Of a DNA stretch of 64,000 nt, positions 7,654-52,331 are shown in pieces. This stretch comes from an uncultured Lachnospiraceae bacterium (GTDB taxonomy: Bacteria; Bacillota; Clostridia; Lachnospirales; Lachnospiraceae), in contig CANPTH010000001.1 in assembly GCA_947576945.1 (NCBI GenBank), forward strand, positions 84,490-148,489, read 5' to 3'. The position numbers were made by a program, and so were the translations under genes. The notes beneath the pieces are model-generated. The model searched no databases. It saw nothing but the letters and a program-made list of their open reading frames with translations, and had not been told where the DNA came from. Position 1 is the stretch's first letter. Each line of letters starts with the position of its first letter.

Positions 7654-7710
7654 GAGCCGGGACTTTGGAATCCGGTTCGGCAGACTGAACAGATTCCGTT
7701 AGATTTTGTG

Positions 7711-7734
7711 ACGCTTCAGAATGGAGTAAGGATG
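7711..7734 (+). repeat. Decayed relative of the SD-linked repeat (family 1)
   Basis: CGCTTCAG-AATGGAG (7712-7726) matches the 3' end of the full element (CGCTTCGG-AATGGAGG). It is followed by ATG at 7732, which opens an 11-codon reading frame ending TAA at 7765-7767. No coding potential is otherwise seen between 7654 and 7863. It may be the remnant of a repeat and its lost gene. Confidence 0.45.
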
Positions 7735-12897: not shown

Positions 12898-12899
12898 AA

Positions 12900-12955
12900 A
12901 TTCTGTTCGCGTCCTCAGCGTAAATCACTTCCCCAGACTGCTTCGGCATGGAGGT
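12900..12955 (+). repeat. Family 1 SD-linked repeat, 3' half, before the DUF896 gene
   Basis: Starts just after the proB stop. AATTCTG, CGCGT, CTCAGC and GCTTCGG-CATGGAGG align in order with the full copy at 51444-51576. The hairpin-loop partner (CCGAAGCG) is absent, so the pseudoknot cannot form. The ATG inside it (12948) is in frame with the next gene. Confidence 0.65.
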
Positions 12956-14558: not shown

Positions 14559-14586
14559 AGGTTGAAGAAATTTGGCTCACACCTTT

Positions 14587-14616
14587 CGCAAAAACTGTTT
14601 CGGAATGGAGGCGAAT
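14587..14616 (+). repeat. Family 1 SD-linked repeat, short 3' fragment
   Basis: GTTTCGG-AATGGAGG (14597-14611) preceded by an A-run matches the last 25 bases of the full element and supplies the ribosome binding site of the FAD gene. No hairpin partner is visible upstream. Confidence 0.5.
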
Positions 14617-18206: not shown

Positions 18207-18295
18207 TTAGTAAACCACAATCATGCGCAGCCTGCCTCCTGGCGGGCCGCATGGCCATCCATGCTATGAAAGCCAGGGACTTTCATAGTAAAAGA
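18207..18295 (-). repeat. MITE-like element (family 2), truncated copy
   Basis: TTAGTAAAC at the left edge, AGCCTGC, CGGGCCGCATGGCCATCC, ATGCT and TGAAAG-N7-CTTTCA match in order the complement of the 113-bp element at 29098-29210. The right end stops after CTTTCATAGTAAA, so the second terminal repeat is lost. It lies between the GT-C gene and proA. Confidence 0.8.
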
Positions 18296-18308
18296 AATGA
18301 GGAATCAT

Positions 18309-20532: not shown

Positions 20533-20587
20533 TAATTCTGCTCTGCGATCAATAGAGTTTGTTGAACTGAATTGCTCCTCAGAGAAT

Positions 20588-21970
20588 TTATTTAACCTTC
20601 TTCTGCGGATTAAAGCTGACGCCTCGATTGATATCACCGTTGGGATTCGCACCGAAGGTATAATCGTTACCCGGCAGGATGGCATTAAGAATGATGCCCG
20701 CCAGCGCGGCGATTGCGAGAGAAGTCAAAGTGATGGAAGTGCCTCCTGCAGAAAAAGTAAGGCCGCCGGAGAAGCCAAGACCGCATACCAGGATAACCGC
20801 AGCGATGATCAGATTTCTTGACTTCGTGAAATCCACTTTGTTTTCCACGATATTCCTGACGCCGATGGCAGAGATCATACCATAGAGGATGAAACTGACA
20901 CCGCCGATAATCGCCGATGGCAGAGAGCCGATAATTGCAGACATCTTCGGTATAAAGCTTAAGATGATGGCATAGAGGGCCGCCAGACGGATCACCTTGG
21001 GGTCGTGAACGCCGCTCAGTTCAAGAACGCCGGTATTCTCTCCGTAAGTCGTGTTGGCGGGACCGCCAAACAGTGCGGAAAGTGAGGTGGCAAGGCCATC
21101 GCCGATCATTGTGCGGTGCAGTCCGGGATCTTCCAGATAATTTTCTCCCACAGTTGCGGAGATGGCGGATATATCGCCGATGTGTTCCATCATGGTGGCC
21201 AGGGCGATGGGCGCCATTACCAGGATCGCCGTGACATCGAATTTACAAAGAAGGAAAGGCGGCAGCCCCACCAGGGATGAGGACGCAACGCCTGAAAAGT
21301 CCAGGATGGCGCTTCCGTCTGCATTGGTAAAGCCAAGTGCATTCATGACCAGGGCTGCTATGTACGAGACTACGACGCCCAGAAGGATAGGAATGATCTT
21401 CCACATGCCTTTGCCCCAGATATTAAAGATAACGATGACTGCCAGCGCGATCAGCGCCAGGAACCAGTTGGAGGATGCGTTGTTTACTGCGGACGGCGCC
21501 AGGCTCAGGCCGATGCAGATGATGATTGGTCCGGTTACCACCGGCGGCAGAAACCGCATGACCTTCTTTACACCAACAAACTTGATCACCAGCGCCAGGA
21601 TCAGGTACAGCAGGCCGGCAATCACGATACCGCCGCAGGCATAGGGCAGCTTTTCTCCGTAAGTCATGCCGGCAAAGATACCGCTGTCTAAATTTGCCAC
21701 CGTGGCAAATCCGCCCAGAAAGGCGAAAGAGGAACCCAGGAAGGCCGGCACTTTCAGCTTGGAGCAGACATGGAAAAAGAGGGTGCCGATTCCTGCAAAA
21801 AACAGTGTTACCTGAATCGAAAGACCCTCTCCGTTAAAATAACTGTTGACCAGAATCGGTACAAGAATTGTTGCACCGAACATTGCGAACATATGCTGCA
21901 GACCAAGCAGCAGCATCTTGGGAACTCCAAGGCTCCTTGCGTCGCGAATGGTTTCGAAGTTGTTACTCAT
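20588..21970 (-). CDS. uraA: Uracil/xanthine permease of the NCS2 family (UraA-like)
   Basis: Polytopic membrane transporter of 460 residues with about 14 hydrophobic segments. The N terminus (LGLQHMFAMFGATILVPIL) is the typical NCS2 opening; later FLGSSFAFLGG and the GGPANTTYGENTGVLELSGV motif of uracil transporters are present. Divergent neighbour upp converts uracil to UMP, so the pair forms a uracil uptake and salvage unit. It has its own promoter at 22027-22055. GGGAGA precedes the start. Confidence 0.92.
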   Translation of the reverse strand: MSNNFETIRDARSLGVPKMLLLGLQHMFAMFGATILVPILVNSYFNGEGLSIQVTLFFAGIGTLFFHVCSKLKVPAFLGSSFAFLGGFATVANLDSGIFAGMTYGEKLPYACGGIVIAGLLYLILALVIKFVGVKKVMRFLPPVVTGPIIICIGLSLAPSAVNNASSNWFLALIALAVIVIFNIWGKGMWKIIPILLGVVVSYIAALVMNALGFTNADGSAILDFSGVASSSLVGLPPFLLCKFDVTAILVMAPIALATMMEHIGDISAISATVGENYLEDPGLHRTMIGDGLATSLSALFGGPANTTYGENTGVLELSGVHDPKVIRLAALYAIILSFIPKMSAIIGSLPSAIIGGVSFILYGMISAIGVRNIVENKVDFTKSRNLIIAAVILVCGLGFSGGLTFSAGGTSITLTSLAIAALAGIILNAILPGNDYTFGANPNGDINRGVSFNPQKKVK

Positions 21971-29097: not shown

Positions 29098-30268
<1,171 letters not shown>

Positions 30269-33578: not shown

Positions 33579-33805
33579 TGGAAAGTAATGAAACTATATC
33601 ACAAAATAAATGATATCACAATGCTGTTTTAGAATCTGTTCCGGAAACGCATATTTTATGATACAGCCAGTATACTGACACGTTTCTGTCTCACCGGATG
33701 ATTTGCCTGCACTGGTTGATTTCTGCTTCAACGGACAGTTGTTTTACAATACCGGATTTATGAGCTATGATGCAGATAGAGTAATGTTGGAGGCGGAAGT
33801 AAGAC

Positions 33806-33866
33806 TGAAAAATCACACCGATGCGCTGATTTTTCAATCGGAAATCCGGACGCTTCGGAATGGAGG
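33806..33866 (+). repeat. Family 1 SD-linked repeat, internally deleted copy
   Basis: TGAAAAATCA-N11-TGATTTTTCA (33806-33836) equals the first hairpin of the full copy. The middle part is missing. CGCTTCGG-AATGGAGG (33851-33866) then supplies the XRE gene's ribosome binding site. Confidence 0.75.
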
Positions 33867-33871
33867 AAAAT

Positions 33872-34651
33872 ATGCAGCAAATAGGTGAAAATATCAGCAG
33901 GTTACGGAAAGAACAGAACATGACACAAGATGAATTCGCACTGCGGCTCGGCGTAACGCCGCAGGCCGTGAGTAAATGGGAGCGGGGTTATAGTCTTCCG
34001 GATGTTACCCTGGTCGCGGAAATCTGCCGCTTGCTGAAGGTACGGGCGGATTCCCTGCTTGGCATGGAAGATGTTCTTTTTTGTGAAAACGAGAATACTG
34101 TGGTGGAACGGGAGATCAGACAGAACCTGATCGCGGAACCCCTTCGTATTGAAGTGGGCGTTGCATTGATTTCCTGTATTGCGGAAGGTTTAAAAACCGA
34201 TTACGTGAACAAATGTCGGAAAAAACTTGCGGCTGAGACAGGAATGTTACTGCCAATCCTTAGAATTCGGGATTCTCTGCATCTGTCAGAGAAGGAAGTC
34301 CGCATCACGTCCTATGATCAGGTGTTACTGCAAAATGAATACGTACAGCCGGATGAGCATACATTTTATGCGGTCATTGACGAGACTGTCAGGCTGTGTA
34401 GAGAGAACTATGACAGGATCTTAAACAAGCAGATTGTAAAAAGTCTGCTGGATAATCTGCAGGAGCAGTATCCGGGCACATTGGATGGACTGGTGCCGGA
34501 CAGAGCAGGCTATTTTGAAGTGATGGAATATTTGCGTACAGTGATCGCGCAGAAGGGGACGTTACGGGATCTGATCCATATCATGGAGGAACTGGAGCGG
34601 TTACTTTCTATGGGTGGAATATGTTACAGTTCGCGGCTGGTTAAGCCGTGA
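33872..34651 (+). CDS. XRE-family transcriptional regulator
   Basis: 259 residues. The N-terminal lambda-repressor-like helix-turn-helix (ISRLRKEQNMTQDEFALRLGVTPQAVSKWERG, with SLPDVTLVAEICRLL) is complete. The C-terminal 180 residues are an unrecognised helical effector part. The ATG at 33872 has GGAGG 5 nt upstream. The last residues (SSRLVKP) and the stop codon are encoded inside the 34624-34658 hairpin, which suggests that a repeat insertion reset the C terminus. Confidence 0.88.
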   Translation: MQQIGENISRLRKEQNMTQDEFALRLGVTPQAVSKWERGYSLPDVTLVAEICRLLKVRADSLLGMEDVLFCENENTVVEREIRQNLIAEPLRIEVGVALISCIAEGLKTDYVNKCRKKLAAETGMLLPILRIRDSLHLSEKEVRITSYDQVLLQNEYVQPDEHTFYAVIDETVRLCRENYDRILNKQIVKSLLDNLQEQYPGTLDGLVPDRAGYFEVMEYLRTVIAQKGTLRDLIHIMEELERLLSMGGICYSSRLVKP

Positions 34652-39135: not shown

Positions 39136-41064
39136 ATGGCAAAGAATACGGCAAACAATTATGATGCTTCCAGCATTACCGTGCTGGAAGGGCTGGAGGC
39201 GGTGCGTGTCCGGCCGGGCATGTATATCGGCAGTGTGTCCACCAAGGGCCTGAACCATCTGATCTATGAGATCATGGACAATGCAGTGGATGAACATCTG
39301 GCGGGTTTCTGTTCCACGATACATGTGACGCTGGAAGCGGACGGTTCGGCCACCGTGTCGGACAACGGACGCGGCATTCCGGTGGGGATGCATGAGAAAG
39401 GGATCAGCGCGGAACGGCTGGTCTTCACCACGCTCCATGCGGGCGGCAAGTTCGACAATGACGCCTATAAGACCAGCGGCGGTCTGCACGGCGTAGGCTC
39501 TTCCGTGGTGAATGCCCTGTCGGCGCATATGCATGTGACGGTAAAGACCGGCGGCTATATCTATGAAGACCGCTATGAGCGCGGTATCCCCACTCTGGAA
39601 CTGCAGGACGGCCTTCTGCCGGTGGTGGGTAAGACGAAGGAATCCGGCACCACCATCAATTTTCTGCCGGACGACACCATATTTGACCGGACGCGGTTTA
39701 AGGAGGATGAGGTCAAGAGCCGTCTTCACGAGACCGCCTATCTGAATCCGGCGCTGACGATCATCTATGAGGATAAGCGCAGAGAAGAGATTGAGCATAT
39801 TGAGTATCATGAACCGGAGGGGATTATCGGTTTCATCAAGGACATGAACAAGTCCAAGGAAGCGATCCATGACGTGATCTACTACAAAGGGGAGTCGGAA
39901 GGCATCACGGTGGAAGTGGCTTTGCAGTATGTAAATGAGTTCCACGAGAATGTGCTGGGCTTCTGCAACAATATCTATAACGCGGAGGGCGGCACCCATC
40001 TGACCGGTTTTAAGACCATGTTTACCAACGTGATCAATACCTATGCCAGAGGACTGAATATCTTAAAGGAGAAGGACGTCAACTTTACCGGAGCGGATGT
40101 GCGAAACGGCATGACGGCCGTTGTTTCCATCAAGCATCCGGATCCCCGTTTCGAGGGGCAGACGAAGACCAAGCTGGACAACCAGGATGCCACGAAGATT
40201 GTGAGCAAGGTGACGGGAGAGGAGATCGTGCGTTTCTTCGACCGCAATCTGGAAACATTAAAAAGTATTATCGGCTGTGCGGAGAAGGCAGCGAAGATCC
40301 GCAAGACGGAGGAGAAGGCGAAGACGAATCTGCTGACCAAGCAGAAATTCTCTTTTGACTCCAACGGGAAGCTGGCCAACTGCGAGTCCAGAGACGCTTC
40401 CAAGTGTGAGATCTTTATCGTGGAGGGAGATTCCGCAGGGGGCAGCGCCAAGACGGCGCGCAACCGTATGTTTCAGGCGATCCTGCCCATCCGCGGTAAG
40501 ATCCTGAATGTGGAGAAAGCCAGTATCGACAAGATTCTGGCCAACGCGGAGATCAAGACGATGATCAACGCTTTCGGCTGCGGTTTTTCGGAAGGCTACG
40601 GCAATGACTTCGATATCAGCAGGCTGCGCTACGACAAGATCATCATCATGGCCGATGCGGACGTGGACGGAGAACATATCTCCACCCTGCTTTTGACCTT
40701 ATTCTACCGGTTTATGCCGGAACTGATCTATGAGGGGCACGTGTATATCGCCATGCCGCCTCTCTATAAAGTCATGCCTTCGAAGGGGGCGGAAGAGTAT
40801 CTTTACGACGATAAGGCGCTGGAGAAGTACCGGAAGCGGCACAAGGGGCCTTTTACCCTGCAGCGCTACAAAGGTCTGGGTGAGATGGACGCCGAGCAGC
40901 TGTGGGAGACGACCCTTGATCCTGACACGAGGCTGTTGAAGCAGGTGGAGATTGAGGACGCCCGCATGGCTACCGAGGTGACGGAAATGCTGATGGGCAC
41001 GGAAGTGCTGCCGCGCAAAGAATTTATCTACCGGCACGCGCAGGATGCGGAGCTGGATATCTGA
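39136..41064 (+). CDS. parE: Type II topoisomerase ATPase subunit (ParE/GyrB-like)
   Basis: 642 residues. GHKL ATPase motifs DNAVDEH, DNGRGIPV and GGLHGVGSSVVNALS are complete, then the transducer domain and a TOPRIM domain with E430 in VEGDSAGGSAKTARNR and DADVDGEH. It ends with the conserved QRYKGLGEMDAEQLWETT. It lies next to the breakage subunit and away from dnaA/recF genes, which favours a ParE-like second topoisomerase over the main gyrase. Naming rests partly on the partner, so gyrB remains possible. AGAGG precedes the start. Confidence 0.85.
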   Translation: MAKNTANNYDASSITVLEGLEAVRVRPGMYIGSVSTKGLNHLIYEIMDNAVDEHLAGFCSTIHVTLEADGSATVSDNGRGIPVGMHEKGISAERLVFTTLHAGGKFDNDAYKTSGGLHGVGSSVVNALSAHMHVTVKTGGYIYEDRYERGIPTLELQDGLLPVVGKTKESGTTINFLPDDTIFDRTRFKEDEVKSRLHETAYLNPALTIIYEDKRREEIEHIEYHEPEGIIGFIKDMNKSKEAIHDVIYYKGESEGITVEVALQYVNEFHENVLGFCNNIYNAEGGTHLTGFKTMFTNVINTYARGLNILKEKDVNFTGADVRNGMTAVVSIKHPDPRFEGQTKTKLDNQDATKIVSKVTGEEIVRFFDRNLETLKSIIGCAEKAAKIRKTEEKAKTNLLTKQKFSFDSNGKLANCESRDASKCEIFIVEGDSAGGSAKTARNRMFQAILPIRGKILNVEKASIDKILANAEIKTMINAFGCGFSEGYGNDFDISRLRYDKIIIMADADVDGEHISTLLLTLFYRFMPELIYEGHVYIAMPPLYKVMPSKGAEEYLYDDKALEKYRKRHKGPFTLQRYKGLGEMDAEQLWETTLDPDTRLLKQVEIEDARMATEVTEMLMGTEVLPRKEFIYRHAQDAELDI

Positions 41065-41084
41065 TTTGAAATTATATTTGATCG

Positions 41085-41178
41085 GGAGTTTGTGCCGAAG
41101 CGTCCCAAACTCCTTACGCGCAGAGCAGAATTTGGGATTCTGCCCGCATTTTTCAATAAAAACGCTTCGGAATGGAAG
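41085..41178 (+). repeat. Family 1 SD-linked structured repeat, parC leader copy
   Basis: Hairpin 41085-41113 (GGAGTTT / AAACTCC) has the 15-nt loop GTGCCGAAGCGTCCC. A second hairpin 41125-41143 is GCAGAAT-TTGGG-ATTCTGC. CGCTTCGG at 41163-41170 is the exact complement of loop bases 41095-41102 and touches the AATGGAAG ribosome site. The first hairpin of the 51444 copy is not present here. Confidence 0.8.
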
Positions 41179-49501: not shown

Positions 49502-51430
49502 ATGGATTTTTTACCGATTTCAAAAGAAGATATGGAAAAACAGGGTATAAAGCAGCTGGATTTCGTCTATGTGATCGGAGATGCCTATGTGGATCATCCT
49601 TCTTTCGGCCACGCCATTATCAGCAGAGTCCTGGAGGCTAACGGTTACCTTGTGGGTATCATCTCACAACCTGACTGGAAGGATGAACGCAGTATTACGG
49701 TATTGGGAAAGCCAAAGCTTGGGTTTCTGATCTCCGGCGGCAATATGGATTCCATGGTCAATCACTACTTTGTATCCGGCAGACATCGCCCTACGGATGC
49801 CTATACGCCCGGCGGTGAGGCCTATAAGAGACCCGATCATGCCACTGTCGTCTATGGCAATCTGATCCGCAGAGTCTATAAAGACGTGCCGGTAATCGTA
49901 GGCGGCATCGAGGCCAGTCTGCGCCGTATGGCACACTATGATTACTGGTCGGACAGTTTCAAACGTTCCATTCTGCTGGACAGTCAGGCGGATTTAATTT
50001 CTTACGGCATGGGCGAGAAATCCATAGTGGAGATTGCAGATGCACTGGCTGGCGGCATTGCAGTGAAAGATATTACATTTATCCCGGGAACAGTCTATAA
50101 GACGAAAGAGATCACAGGAATTTATGACGCCATCCGGCTTCCTTCCTATGAGGAAATGAAAGCTGTACCGCGCAGATACGCAGAAAGCTTCCAGGTACAA
50201 TACTGCAATACCGACCCTTTTGTGGGCAGGACACTGATCGAGGAATATCCGCATGGCGTCTTTGTTGTGCAGAATCCGCCTCAGATGCCGTTGACGACGC
50301 AGGAAATGGATGCAGTCTATGACCTGCCCTATATGCGCACCTATCATCCGTCTTATGAAGCGGCGGGAGGAGTACCGGCCATTTCGGAGATCAGATTTTC
50401 CCTTGTCAGTAACAGAGGGTGTTTCGGCGGCTGTAATTTCTGTGCCCTGACGTTTCATCAGGGACGGACTGTGCAGGTCAGAAGCCATGAATCGATCCTG
50501 CGGGAAGCGGAGAGAATGATTCGTGAGAAAGATTTTAAAGGTTATATACATGATGTAGGCGGTCCGACTGCCAATTTCAGGCAGCCATCCTGTCAGAAAC
50601 AGATGACACAAGGCGTCTGCAAAAACAGGCAGTGTCTTTTTCCGGAACCCTGTCCCAATCTGGAAGCGGATCATTCTGATTATCTGCAGCTGCTGCGCAG
50701 ACTGCGGGCGCTGCCCGGCGTGAAGAAGGTCTTTATCCGTTCGGGCATCCGTTTTGATTATCTGCTGGCGGACCGGGATGACACCTTTTTCAGGGAACTG
50801 GTGGAGCATCATGTCAGCGGACAGCTCAAGGTGGCGCCGGAGCATATTTCGGATGCGGTTCTTCAGAAGCTGGGCAAACCGAAGAAAGCGGTCTATGAAC
50901 GGTTTGTCAAAAAATATTACAGACTCAATGAACAGCTTGGCAAAAAGCAGTTTCTGGTGCCATATCTGATGTCCTCTCATCCCGGCTCCACCTTGAAAGA
51001 GGCCATTGAACTGGCGGAATATCTTCGGGATCTGGGTTATATGCCGGAGCAGGTGCAGGATTTCTATCCGACGCCCTCCACGGTATCTACGGTTATGTAC
51101 TATACAGGAATCGATCCACGGGACGGGACGAAAGTGTATGTCTGTCATAATCCTCACGAGAAGGCCATGCAGAGGGCGCTGATCCAGTACATAAATCCGA
51201 ACAATTATGAACTGGTGAAGGAGGCATTAATTAAGGGAGGCCGGGAAGATCTGATCGGGTTTGACAAAAAATGCCTGATCAGGCCGCGGAAGATGGACAA
51301 CAGGAATTCGAATTCATGCAAAACCTCTGTTGATGCGAAGCAGCGGAATAAAAAAGGGGAAAAAAGCAGGAATGCGAAAGCCGGAAAGAAGACGATCCGG
51401 AATGTGCATAAGAAAAAACGAGATATGTGA
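49502..51430 (+). CDS. YgiQ-family radical SAM protein
   Basis: 642 residues. An N-terminal UPF0313 domain ([21 protein letters not shown]) is followed by the radical SAM core with cysteines C307, C311 and C314 (CFGGCNFC). The C-terminal part has [18 protein letters not shown] and ends in a very basic tail (Lys/Arg-rich, residues 600-642), which may bind nucleic acid. The reaction of this widespread family is unknown. The ATG follows AGAGGA. Confidence 0.9.
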
Positions 51431-51443
51431 AAAGGAGACAAAA

Positions 51444-51576
51444 ATTGAAAAATCACACTGATGTGCTGATTTTTCAATCCAGAGTTTGTGCCGAAGCGTC
51501 CCAAACTCCTTGATCGCAGCGCAGAATTTGAAATTCTGCACGCGTTCCTCAGCAAAAAAACGCTTCGGAATGGAGG
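51444..51576 (+). promoter_or_regulatory. Family 1 SD-linked structured element, complete copy
   Basis: Hairpin 1: ATTGAAAAATCA / TGATTTTTCAAT (51444-51478). Hairpin 2: GAGTTT / AAACTC (51482-51508) with loop GTGCCGAAGCGTCCC. Hairpin 3: GCAGAATTTGAAATTCTGC (51521-51539). CGCTTCGG (51561-51568) complements loop bases 51491-51498 and lies three bases before GGAGG of the SDR gene. The architecture resembles a pseudoknot that could hide or expose the ribosome site. Confidence 0.75.
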
Positions 51577-51581
51577 AAACT

Positions 51582-52331
51582 ATGAATATTGCGCTTATTA
51601 CAGGTGCGTCTTCCGGGATGGGAATGGAATTTGCACGACAGCTGGACAGAAGTTTACATAAAACAGATGAAATTTGGCTTCTGGCCCGCAGGCGGGAGCC
51701 GATGGAGGAGCTGGCGCGTACCTTGCAGCACAAAACACAGATCATCGCCATGGATGTCACACTGGACAGTGCGGTGAAGCAGTTTGCAGAAGTGCTTGCG
51801 ATCAGCAATCCGAAGATTACAGTGCTGGTTAATTGTGCAGGGGTGGGAAAGTATGGTAAATTTGCGCATCAGAGTGATGAAGAAGTATCGAATATGATGC
51901 AGCTTAATATCGTGGCATTGACCAGAATGACGAAACTGTGTCTGCCGTATATGCGCAGAGGCAGCAAGATCATACAACTGGCATCAGGAGCAGCCTTTGT
52001 GCCGCAGAAGGCTTTCGCGGTCTATGCCGCATCTAAAGCTTATGTCTATTCTTTAAGCAGAGCGTTAAACAAAGAACTGGCAGAGCGCGGGATTCGTGTC
52101 ATGGCAGTCTGTCCGGGGCCTGTGAATACACCTTTTCTATCCAGAGCTTATGGAGAAGACTCCAATATAGGCAGACTGAAAAAACTTGCCACGATGGAGG
52201 CGGAGAGCGTGGTTAACAAGGCGGTCATGGACTGTAAGAGAGGAAAGTCGGTTTCCGTTTGCGGTCTGCCCATGAAGGCATTGTATTATGCCACGCAGGG
52301 GATACAGAATCTGTTATGTAAGTTTACATAA
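51582..52331 (+). CDS. Short-chain dehydrogenase/reductase
   Basis: 249 residues, classical SDR fold. Cofactor motif TGASSGMGMEFA at the N terminus, NCAGVG, and the catalytic triad S135, Y148 and K152 (YAASK). PGPVNTPFL follows. It is a NAD(P)-dependent oxidoreductase of unknown substrate, close to DltE/YqjQ-like proteins. The ATG at 51582 follows GGAGG; longer frames read through the repeat. The next gene starts 28 nt downstream. Confidence 0.9.
   Translation: MNIALITGASSGMGMEFARQLDRSLHKTDEIWLLARRREPMEELARTLQHKTQIIAMDVTLDSAVKQFAEVLAISNPKITVLVNCAGVGKYGKFAHQSDEEVSNMMQLNIVALTRMTKLCLPYMRRGSKIIQLASGAAFVPQKAFAVYAASKAYVYSLSRALNKELAERGIRVMAVCPGPVNTPFLSRAYGEDSNIGRLKKLATMEAESVVNKAVMDCKRGKSVSVCGLPMKALYYATQGIQNLLCKFT

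Follow-up and report, generated by a model that had tools for sequence, protein, structure and literature searches.

The analyzed window is a stretch of 64,000 nt from an uncultured Lachnospiraceae bacterium, the genome of which (4.37 Mb, 133 contigs) is referred to as G000. Within the window, a structured sequence of 134 nt separates a radical SAM protein gene from a short-chain dehydrogenase (SDR) gene (table 1). It is composed of three hairpins in a row, as the initial annotation had described, and ends in a tail that reads CGCTTCGG-AAT-GGAGG, with the ATG start codon of the SDR gene at position 51582. The 8-base loop of hairpin 2, CCGAAGCG (51491-51498), is exactly complementary to CGCTTCGG (51561-51568), and the three bases AAT separate the latter from GGAGG (51572-51576); the complementarity and the gap had both been claimed and were confirmed in the sequence. 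The span proposed originally (51444..51584) captured a real feature with slightly different ends (table 1), which are flanked by the triplet AAA on either side. Three other locations in the genome hold copies that are 94-97% identical to the window element.

The window contains further copies (table 1). The one that had been placed at 41085 is real but has a degenerate first hairpin, and it sits between genes resembling subunits B and A of gyrase/topoisomerase IV. The open reading frame (ORF) behind the short copy (33860-34651) encodes a helix-turn-helix domain and a partial FHIPEP match. A degenerate hairpin 1 followed by a fragment of hairpin 3, without a tail, is present on the minus strand at 20561-20597, and a 98-nt inverted repeat pair (18208-18305 and 29111-29208, 77% complementary) is spaced 10.8 kb apart.

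Table 1. Positions of the features in the window.
Feature	Position	Strand	Evidence
Upstream gene, radical SAM protein (Radical_SAM_N, DUF3362)	49502..51430	+	Pfam
Native Shine-Dalgarno region for the SDR gene (AAAGGAGAC), displaced to the left side of the element	51431..51439	+	Sequence; element-free G050 ortholog reads AAAGGGGAACAGACTATG
Left copy of the 3-bp target-site duplication, AAA	51440..51442	+	Register set over 72 unique non-tandem full copies
Full-length copy of the probable mobile element, 134 nt	51443..51576	+	Covariance-model match, 131.5 bits (this copy is one of the model's 46 rows)
Hairpin 1	51443..51479	+	Covarying stem
NTG codon in hairpin 1 (TTG), two bases from the insertion point	51445-51447	+	NTG in 91/96 full copies
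Hairpin 2, loop CCGAAGCG	51482..51508	+	Sequence, alignment
Hairpin 3	51515..51544	+	Covarying stem
CGCTTCGG, predicted to pair with the loop of hairpin 2 in the pseudoknot	51561..51568	+	Sequence, covariation
GGAGG, Shine-Dalgarno sequence carried by the 3' end of the element	51572..51576	+	ATG exactly 5 nt downstream in 138/217 tails
Right copy of the 3-bp target-site duplication, AAA	51577..51579	+	Register over full copies; letters at the site
SDR gene (short-chain dehydrogenase)	51582..52331	+	Pfam PF00106, 4.1e-43
Second copy, hairpin 1 decayed	41081..41178	+	Covariance model, 84.3 bits over 41050-41178
Short copy, hairpin 1 and tail only	33803..33866	+	Covariance model, 37.9 bits
5'-shortened copy (tail at 14597)	14567..14611	+	Tail match
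5'-shortened copy (tail at 12940)	12898..12954	+	Tail match
Degenerate short-type tail, TTTGTGACGCTTCAGAATGGAGT (tail at 7713)	7705..7727	+	Tail match

Structure and Covariation

Full copies are mostly 130-134 nt long (a repeat of about 133 nt) and share one order: hairpin 1 at the extreme 5' end, hairpin 2 with the CCGAAGCG loop, hairpin 3, and the CGCTTCGG-AAT-GGAGG tail. The RNA fold of the window copy has a z-score of -2.87, with equally good folds in 2 out of 200 shuffles; the minimum-energy fold replaces hairpin 2 with the loop/tail helix because the folding program cannot draw pseudoknots. In an alignment of 46 copies, 90.2% of the cells are paired in the proposed structure, and the covariation score is 0.329 compared with 0.114 for shuffled and 0.045-0.087 for slid controls. 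Two-sided changes are found in hairpins 1 and 3 and in the outer part of hairpin 2. The loop/tail helix is 99.2% paired and nearly invariant in this alignment, partly by construction: the exact loop-plus-tail pattern was used to find the loci that supply 32 of the 46 rows.

The initial annotation had proposed a pseudoknot between the loop and the downstream sequence and had named covariation across genomes as its check. Covariance-model hits in other genera and species, which were chosen independently of the loop sequence, contain the compensatory pairs that bear it out. The loop CCGGAGC(G) occurs with the tail GCTCC in copies of three genomes (G059, G195, and G211), CCGAGC with GCTCGG represents the loss of a base on both sides, and a further compensated pair joins GGAACGTC to GACGTTCT. 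Among 13 divergent copies, pairing of each loop with its own tail is stronger than crosswise pairing (mean -15.6 vs. -12.0 kcal/mol, 0 of 20000 permutations), a count that is not a strict probability because the copies (12 of 30 listed rows and L195) were hand-picked as departing from the consensus and some are close relatives. The own tail is weaker than the consensus tail in L294 (-9.7 vs. -12.4) and slightly weaker in L304 (-12.1 vs. -12.3), and the L293 tail pairs more strongly with the consensus loop than with its own. One pair is broken in L314, which lies outside the 13-copy set, and in 18 CAGAAGCGT copies and two CCGAAACGT copies from a search that also contained many spurious rows.

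A fourth hairpin (AGCG..CGCT) that would compete with the pseudoknot was rejected (69% paired, covariation not above shuffles). Across hairpins 1-3 and the pseudoknot, G.U cells (76) are not clearly in excess of A.C cells (60; 5 vs. 0 in the pseudoknot alone), and selection on the RNA strand is therefore unproven. Overall, the element RNA is predicted to form a pseudoknot that adjoins the newly supplied ribosome site.

Copy Number and Distribution

The tail CGCTTCGGAATGGAGG was identified 236 times in G000 when up to two mismatches were allowed (89 exact matches, counted from the listing), compared with a single match for the reversed control. A 149-nt query returned at least 50 matches in the same genome (40 of 199 candidates scored), and hairpin 1 of one subfamily returned 54, of which 39 are exact (counted from the list). 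At one mismatch or fewer, 56 out of 98 relatives contain at least one tail. A covariance-model search of the genomes of the order, conducted with strict filters and no more than 13 scored candidates in each genome, identified the element in at least 12 out of 246 genomes that belong to two families. In the second family (G066 and G122), the element is abundant but patchily distributed, a pattern that could reflect horizontal transfer or loss. The exact loop-plus-tail pattern was found at no fewer than 80 named loci, the titles of which give Lachnospiraceae, Eisenbergiella, Parablautia, and others, or merely Clostridia or uncultured bacterium. No element match was found in plasmids and phages by blastn or in viral contigs with one exact pattern.

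Empty Sites and the Insertion Target

The initial annotation had considered a mobile repeat that brings its own ribosome site, and this idea gained support from empty orthologous sites and a 3-bp duplication. The uvrA site in G000 (gene identified by Pfam) reads ATGGAGG-GAA-element-GGAGG, followed by GAA-TT-ATG, whereas the three closest relatives (G053, G050, and G009) read ATGGAGGAAACTATG, and no tail is present within 200 nt upstream of uvrA in 29 out of 29 relatives. For the window copy, the G050 ortholog AAAGGGGAACAGACTATG corresponds to AAAGGAGAC-AAA-CTATG, the sequence obtained when the element and one AAA are taken out. Besides uvrA, six genes gave 14 informative orthologs, all of which lack the element and display the usual order of Shine-Dalgarno (SD) sequence, spacer, and ATG; the closest of these (G009, 98.3% identity over 299 nt) has the site AGGAGGGCAGGAAAGATG. 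The comparison comprised 24 gene-locus pairs, including six that aligned inside the gene only and four others: two with an element (L266 and L286), one in which a tail-like sequence is present but degenerate (L274), and another with an unclear junction (L275). In G009, the L266 copy is common to both genomes and the L286 gene bears a different copy.

The ATG is located exactly 5 nt behind GGAGG in 138 out of 217 distinct tails. Within 462 kb of scanned sequence, the spacing is 5 nt in 20 out of 25 element genes with GGAGG, and the element-free genes display a broad spread, mostly 4-10 nt. On the left side, a strong SD sequence is found within 16 nt of the element in 23 out of 48 non-tandem full copies, compared with 0-3 of 48 in 13 overlapping windows farther upstream; no SD motif is present at the left of 31 out of 75 non-tandem full copies. 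The base triplets on the two sides of the element are identical in 21 out of 72 unique non-tandem full copies (11.9 expected from shuffles, p = 0.002) and differ in at least one base in the other 51, and the mean number of left/right matches exceeds that of shuffled pairs (p below 0.0002), with the register being the best of several tried and one of its three positions near-constant and uninformative. Neighboring positions show no excess agreement. An 8-bp duplication that includes GGAGG was rejected, since L009, L005, and the window copy show GGAGG to be part of the element itself and the excess agreement covers three positions.

When the flanks are rejoined, they display a purine-rich SD sequence, N-A/T-A, the insertion point, two bases, and ATG (SD-NWA^NNATG). 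An ORF of at least 60 codons (or one that runs off the end of the locus) follows 62 out of 72 full copies and is absent behind ten. An SD sequence lies to the left of 40 out of 62 copies that precede an ORF and of two out of ten that do not; the recognized motif is therefore probably NWA^NNATG, with the SD sequence following from survival at gene starts. Furthermore, 21 out of 96 full copies are located directly behind another tail, a nesting that would be expected if older copies offered a target in their own tail region.

Shortened, Short, and Mosaic-Like Copies

Nearly half of the tails (102 out of 217) belong to copies that are shortened at the 5' end. No duplication is found at the edge of these copies (observed 1.87, null 1.86, p = 0.44) and SD sequences at their left edge are weakly enriched (9 of 102 vs. 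2-8 of 102 elsewhere). They are tentatively read as later (secondary) deletions. In G000, 37 out of 53 shortened copies keep the full GCTTCGGAATGGAGG, many of them without the pairing loop; later deletion does not fully explain such exact tails, which look as if the tail alone were maintained or the deletions were recent.

A short form of about 65 nt consists of hairpin 1, TTTGTG, and ACGCTTCGGAATGGAGG (L320, L322, L122, and L073 in G000 and L098 in G006). Its internal junction is nearly constant (L322 has a C there), and some copies carry an SD sequence or a 3-bp repeat at their edges. This form lacks the pseudoknot loop and may represent a mobile subfamily in its own right; since such loop-free copies look inserted, mobility may not require the pseudoknot. 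Another group of copies in G000 (L326-L331 and L334) joins a similar 5' half to different 3' halves that end in CAGCGTAAAACGCTTCGG or CCGCAAAAAAACTGCTTCGG, which suggests recombination between copies.

Search for a Driving Enzyme

The element has no terminal inverted repeats (the ends of 96 full copies match at 5.27 vs. 6.16 of 16 positions when shuffled, best 8). A search for Y1_Tnp gave no match in G000; a Y1 transposase is likewise absent from four of seven other element-bearing genomes and present once in each of the remaining three. A single RVT_1 match represents the reverse transcriptases of G000 (L265, G000:C20:59774-60376). No element tail was found in the 2.2-kb locus around it, and its surroundings resemble what we take to be a phage neighborhood, possibly of the diversity-generating retroelement (DGR) type.

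No larger autonomous copy with the same ends was found in the loci examined. Among the fetched loci, the tail lies within 220 nt of 85 out of 103 hairpin 1 matches (four hairpin patterns), and the 18 matches without a tail consist of 15 that represent the other strand of the palindrome and three that are degenerate. For one subfamily, 18 stretches around its genome-wide matches were inspected: 17 have the tail at a distance of 50-158 nt, and the 18th stretch ended early.

Alternative Explanations and Known Systems

A translation-controlling RNA switch (a riboswitch, as had been suggested initially, or a thermosensor), in which the pseudoknot would hide or free GGAGG on a signal, would agree with a loop/tail helix that stops 3 nt short of GGAGG and that covaries in other genera. 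The preQ1 and SAM-II pseudoknot riboswitches likewise pair a loop with the sequence beside the ribosome site. The likeness is one of shape only: those riboswitches differ from the present element, which has no regulon, varies in presence between relatives, and reaches a high copy number. A conserved covarying structure was found, but the association with functionally related genes was not. As had been noted from the start, the genes behind the copies are unrelated (SDR, topoisomerase subunit A, UvrA, and a PDZ/radical-SAM protein), with no sign of a regulon among them, and no sign of a ligand was found. The same genes lack the element in relatives, ten of the 72 full copies precede no 60-codon ORF, 236 tails per genome are far above the usual regulon, and the G.U count is not clearly above that of A.C. 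These observations make a switch quite improbable. The initial annotation had not matched the element to a named RNA family, and an Rfam search of the window gave nothing at the gathering score. The TD-2 RNA matches the minus strand with 30.1 bits (E = 0.012), below its gathering score of 48.7; with the E-value cut-off for a 64-kb search, eight loci that bear divergent copies gave no such match. Palindromic hairpins yield reverse-strand matches of this kind. The match was taken as chance, and a TD-2 RNA on the opposite strand is extremely improbable.

Two known modes of mobility were also weighed against the data. A bacterial SINE-like retroposon, the RNA of which would be reverse-transcribed from its 3' end into nicked start-codon regions and often truncated at the 5' end, would account for the fixed 3' end, the many shortened copies (102/217 tails), the missing inverted repeats, the structured RNA, and the 3-bp duplication at full copies. 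It is nevertheless unlikely: the truncated copies lack duplications and have the weak SD enrichment described above, and the one reverse transcriptase match in G000 provides no partner that shares the 3' end. An IS200/IS605-type (REP/PATE-like) single-strand element would use a hairpin loop to guide cleavage at its own 3' site. REP/PATE elements of this type have hairpins, are orientation-specific, and lack terminal inverted repeats, and the present element resembles them in all three respects as well as in its loop/tail complementarity. The IS200/IS605 mechanism is not known to make a target duplication, whereas a duplication is present here, and no Y1 transposase was found in G000 or in four of the seven other genomes, which renders this origin very unlikely.

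Among small repeats, the bcr1-bcr18 repeats of the Bacillus cereus group are described as interspersed sequences of 100-400 bp (bcr1 with up to 130 copies) with mobile features, a link to TTTAT, and possibly site-specific insertion (PMC6542083). The present element is alike in being a small interspersed repeat with many copies per genome, mobile features, and possibly site-specific insertion, and unlike in targeting NWA^NNATG before start codons, carrying its own SD sequence, and having a conserved loop/tail pseudoknot; the bcr1-type TTTAT motif was not found in its target logo. MITEs and the pneumococcal BOX, RUP, and SPRITE elements are described as short, apparently non-autonomous, and base-paired, with a target duplication (PMC3049150). 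The present element appears to share these traits and differs in its target (the gap between SD sequence and start codon) and in that neither terminal inverted repeats nor a matching IS or related autonomous element was found. In its behavior, the element would resemble small mobile repeats that are dispersed through genomes, such as bcr1 or MITEs. A literature search of open-licence PMC papers, which included the letters of the tail, found no description of it.

A Candidate Mobile Element at Gene Starts

Taken together, the feature is probably a non-autonomous mobile element that is moved in trans by a putative enzyme and the RNA of which is predicted to be pseudoknotted at the new ribosome site. 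Comparison among copies and genomes supports its occurrence at loci where relatives have no copy, the 3-bp duplication, the preference for ATG, the nesting, and the covariation. The putative enzyme would recognize approximately NWA^NNATG and duplicate NWA. An insertion immediately upstream of a start codon would leave the gene with a ribosome site at 5 nt, since GGAGG forms the 3' end of the element, and insertions at gene starts would survive through this substitution for the displaced SD sequence. It is likely that the element can jump before working genes without silencing them.

Bases 3-5 of the element are NTG in 91 out of 96 full copies (TTG 68, GTG 11, ATG 7, and CTG 5). The displaced native SD sequence thus faces an NTG where the native ATG stood, and a leader ORF may therefore be translated; such translation through the element may open the pseudoknot. 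The NTG frame is open past GGAGG in 46 out of 96 full copies, a set with many related members. A conserved leader peptide was rejected, as the frame is open but the peptide switches frame between clades, and no coding constraint is therefore claimed. With its end three bases away from GGAGG, the pseudoknot may act in mobility, in the tuning of initiation, or in both. We tentatively raise the possibility that the element represents a new mobile class that inserts specifically between SD sequence and start codon, with a 3-bp duplication, no terminal inverted repeats, a replacement ribosome site, and the native SD sequence driving a leader ORF through a pseudoknotted RNA.

If this is true, the element would spread across hundreds of gene starts, do little harm there, and bring these starts under a common RNA structure. 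An enzyme that generates a 3-bp duplication, needs no inverted repeats, and targets sites adjacent to ATG would be a concrete goal for searches. The element would provide the ribosome site of many genes in one genome, including uvrA and a topoisomerase subunit, and start-site annotation, expression models, and operon coupling at these genes would therefore depend on it. The translation start, usually an unforgiving place for an insertion, would serve as a safe harbor for an element that brings its own ribosome site.
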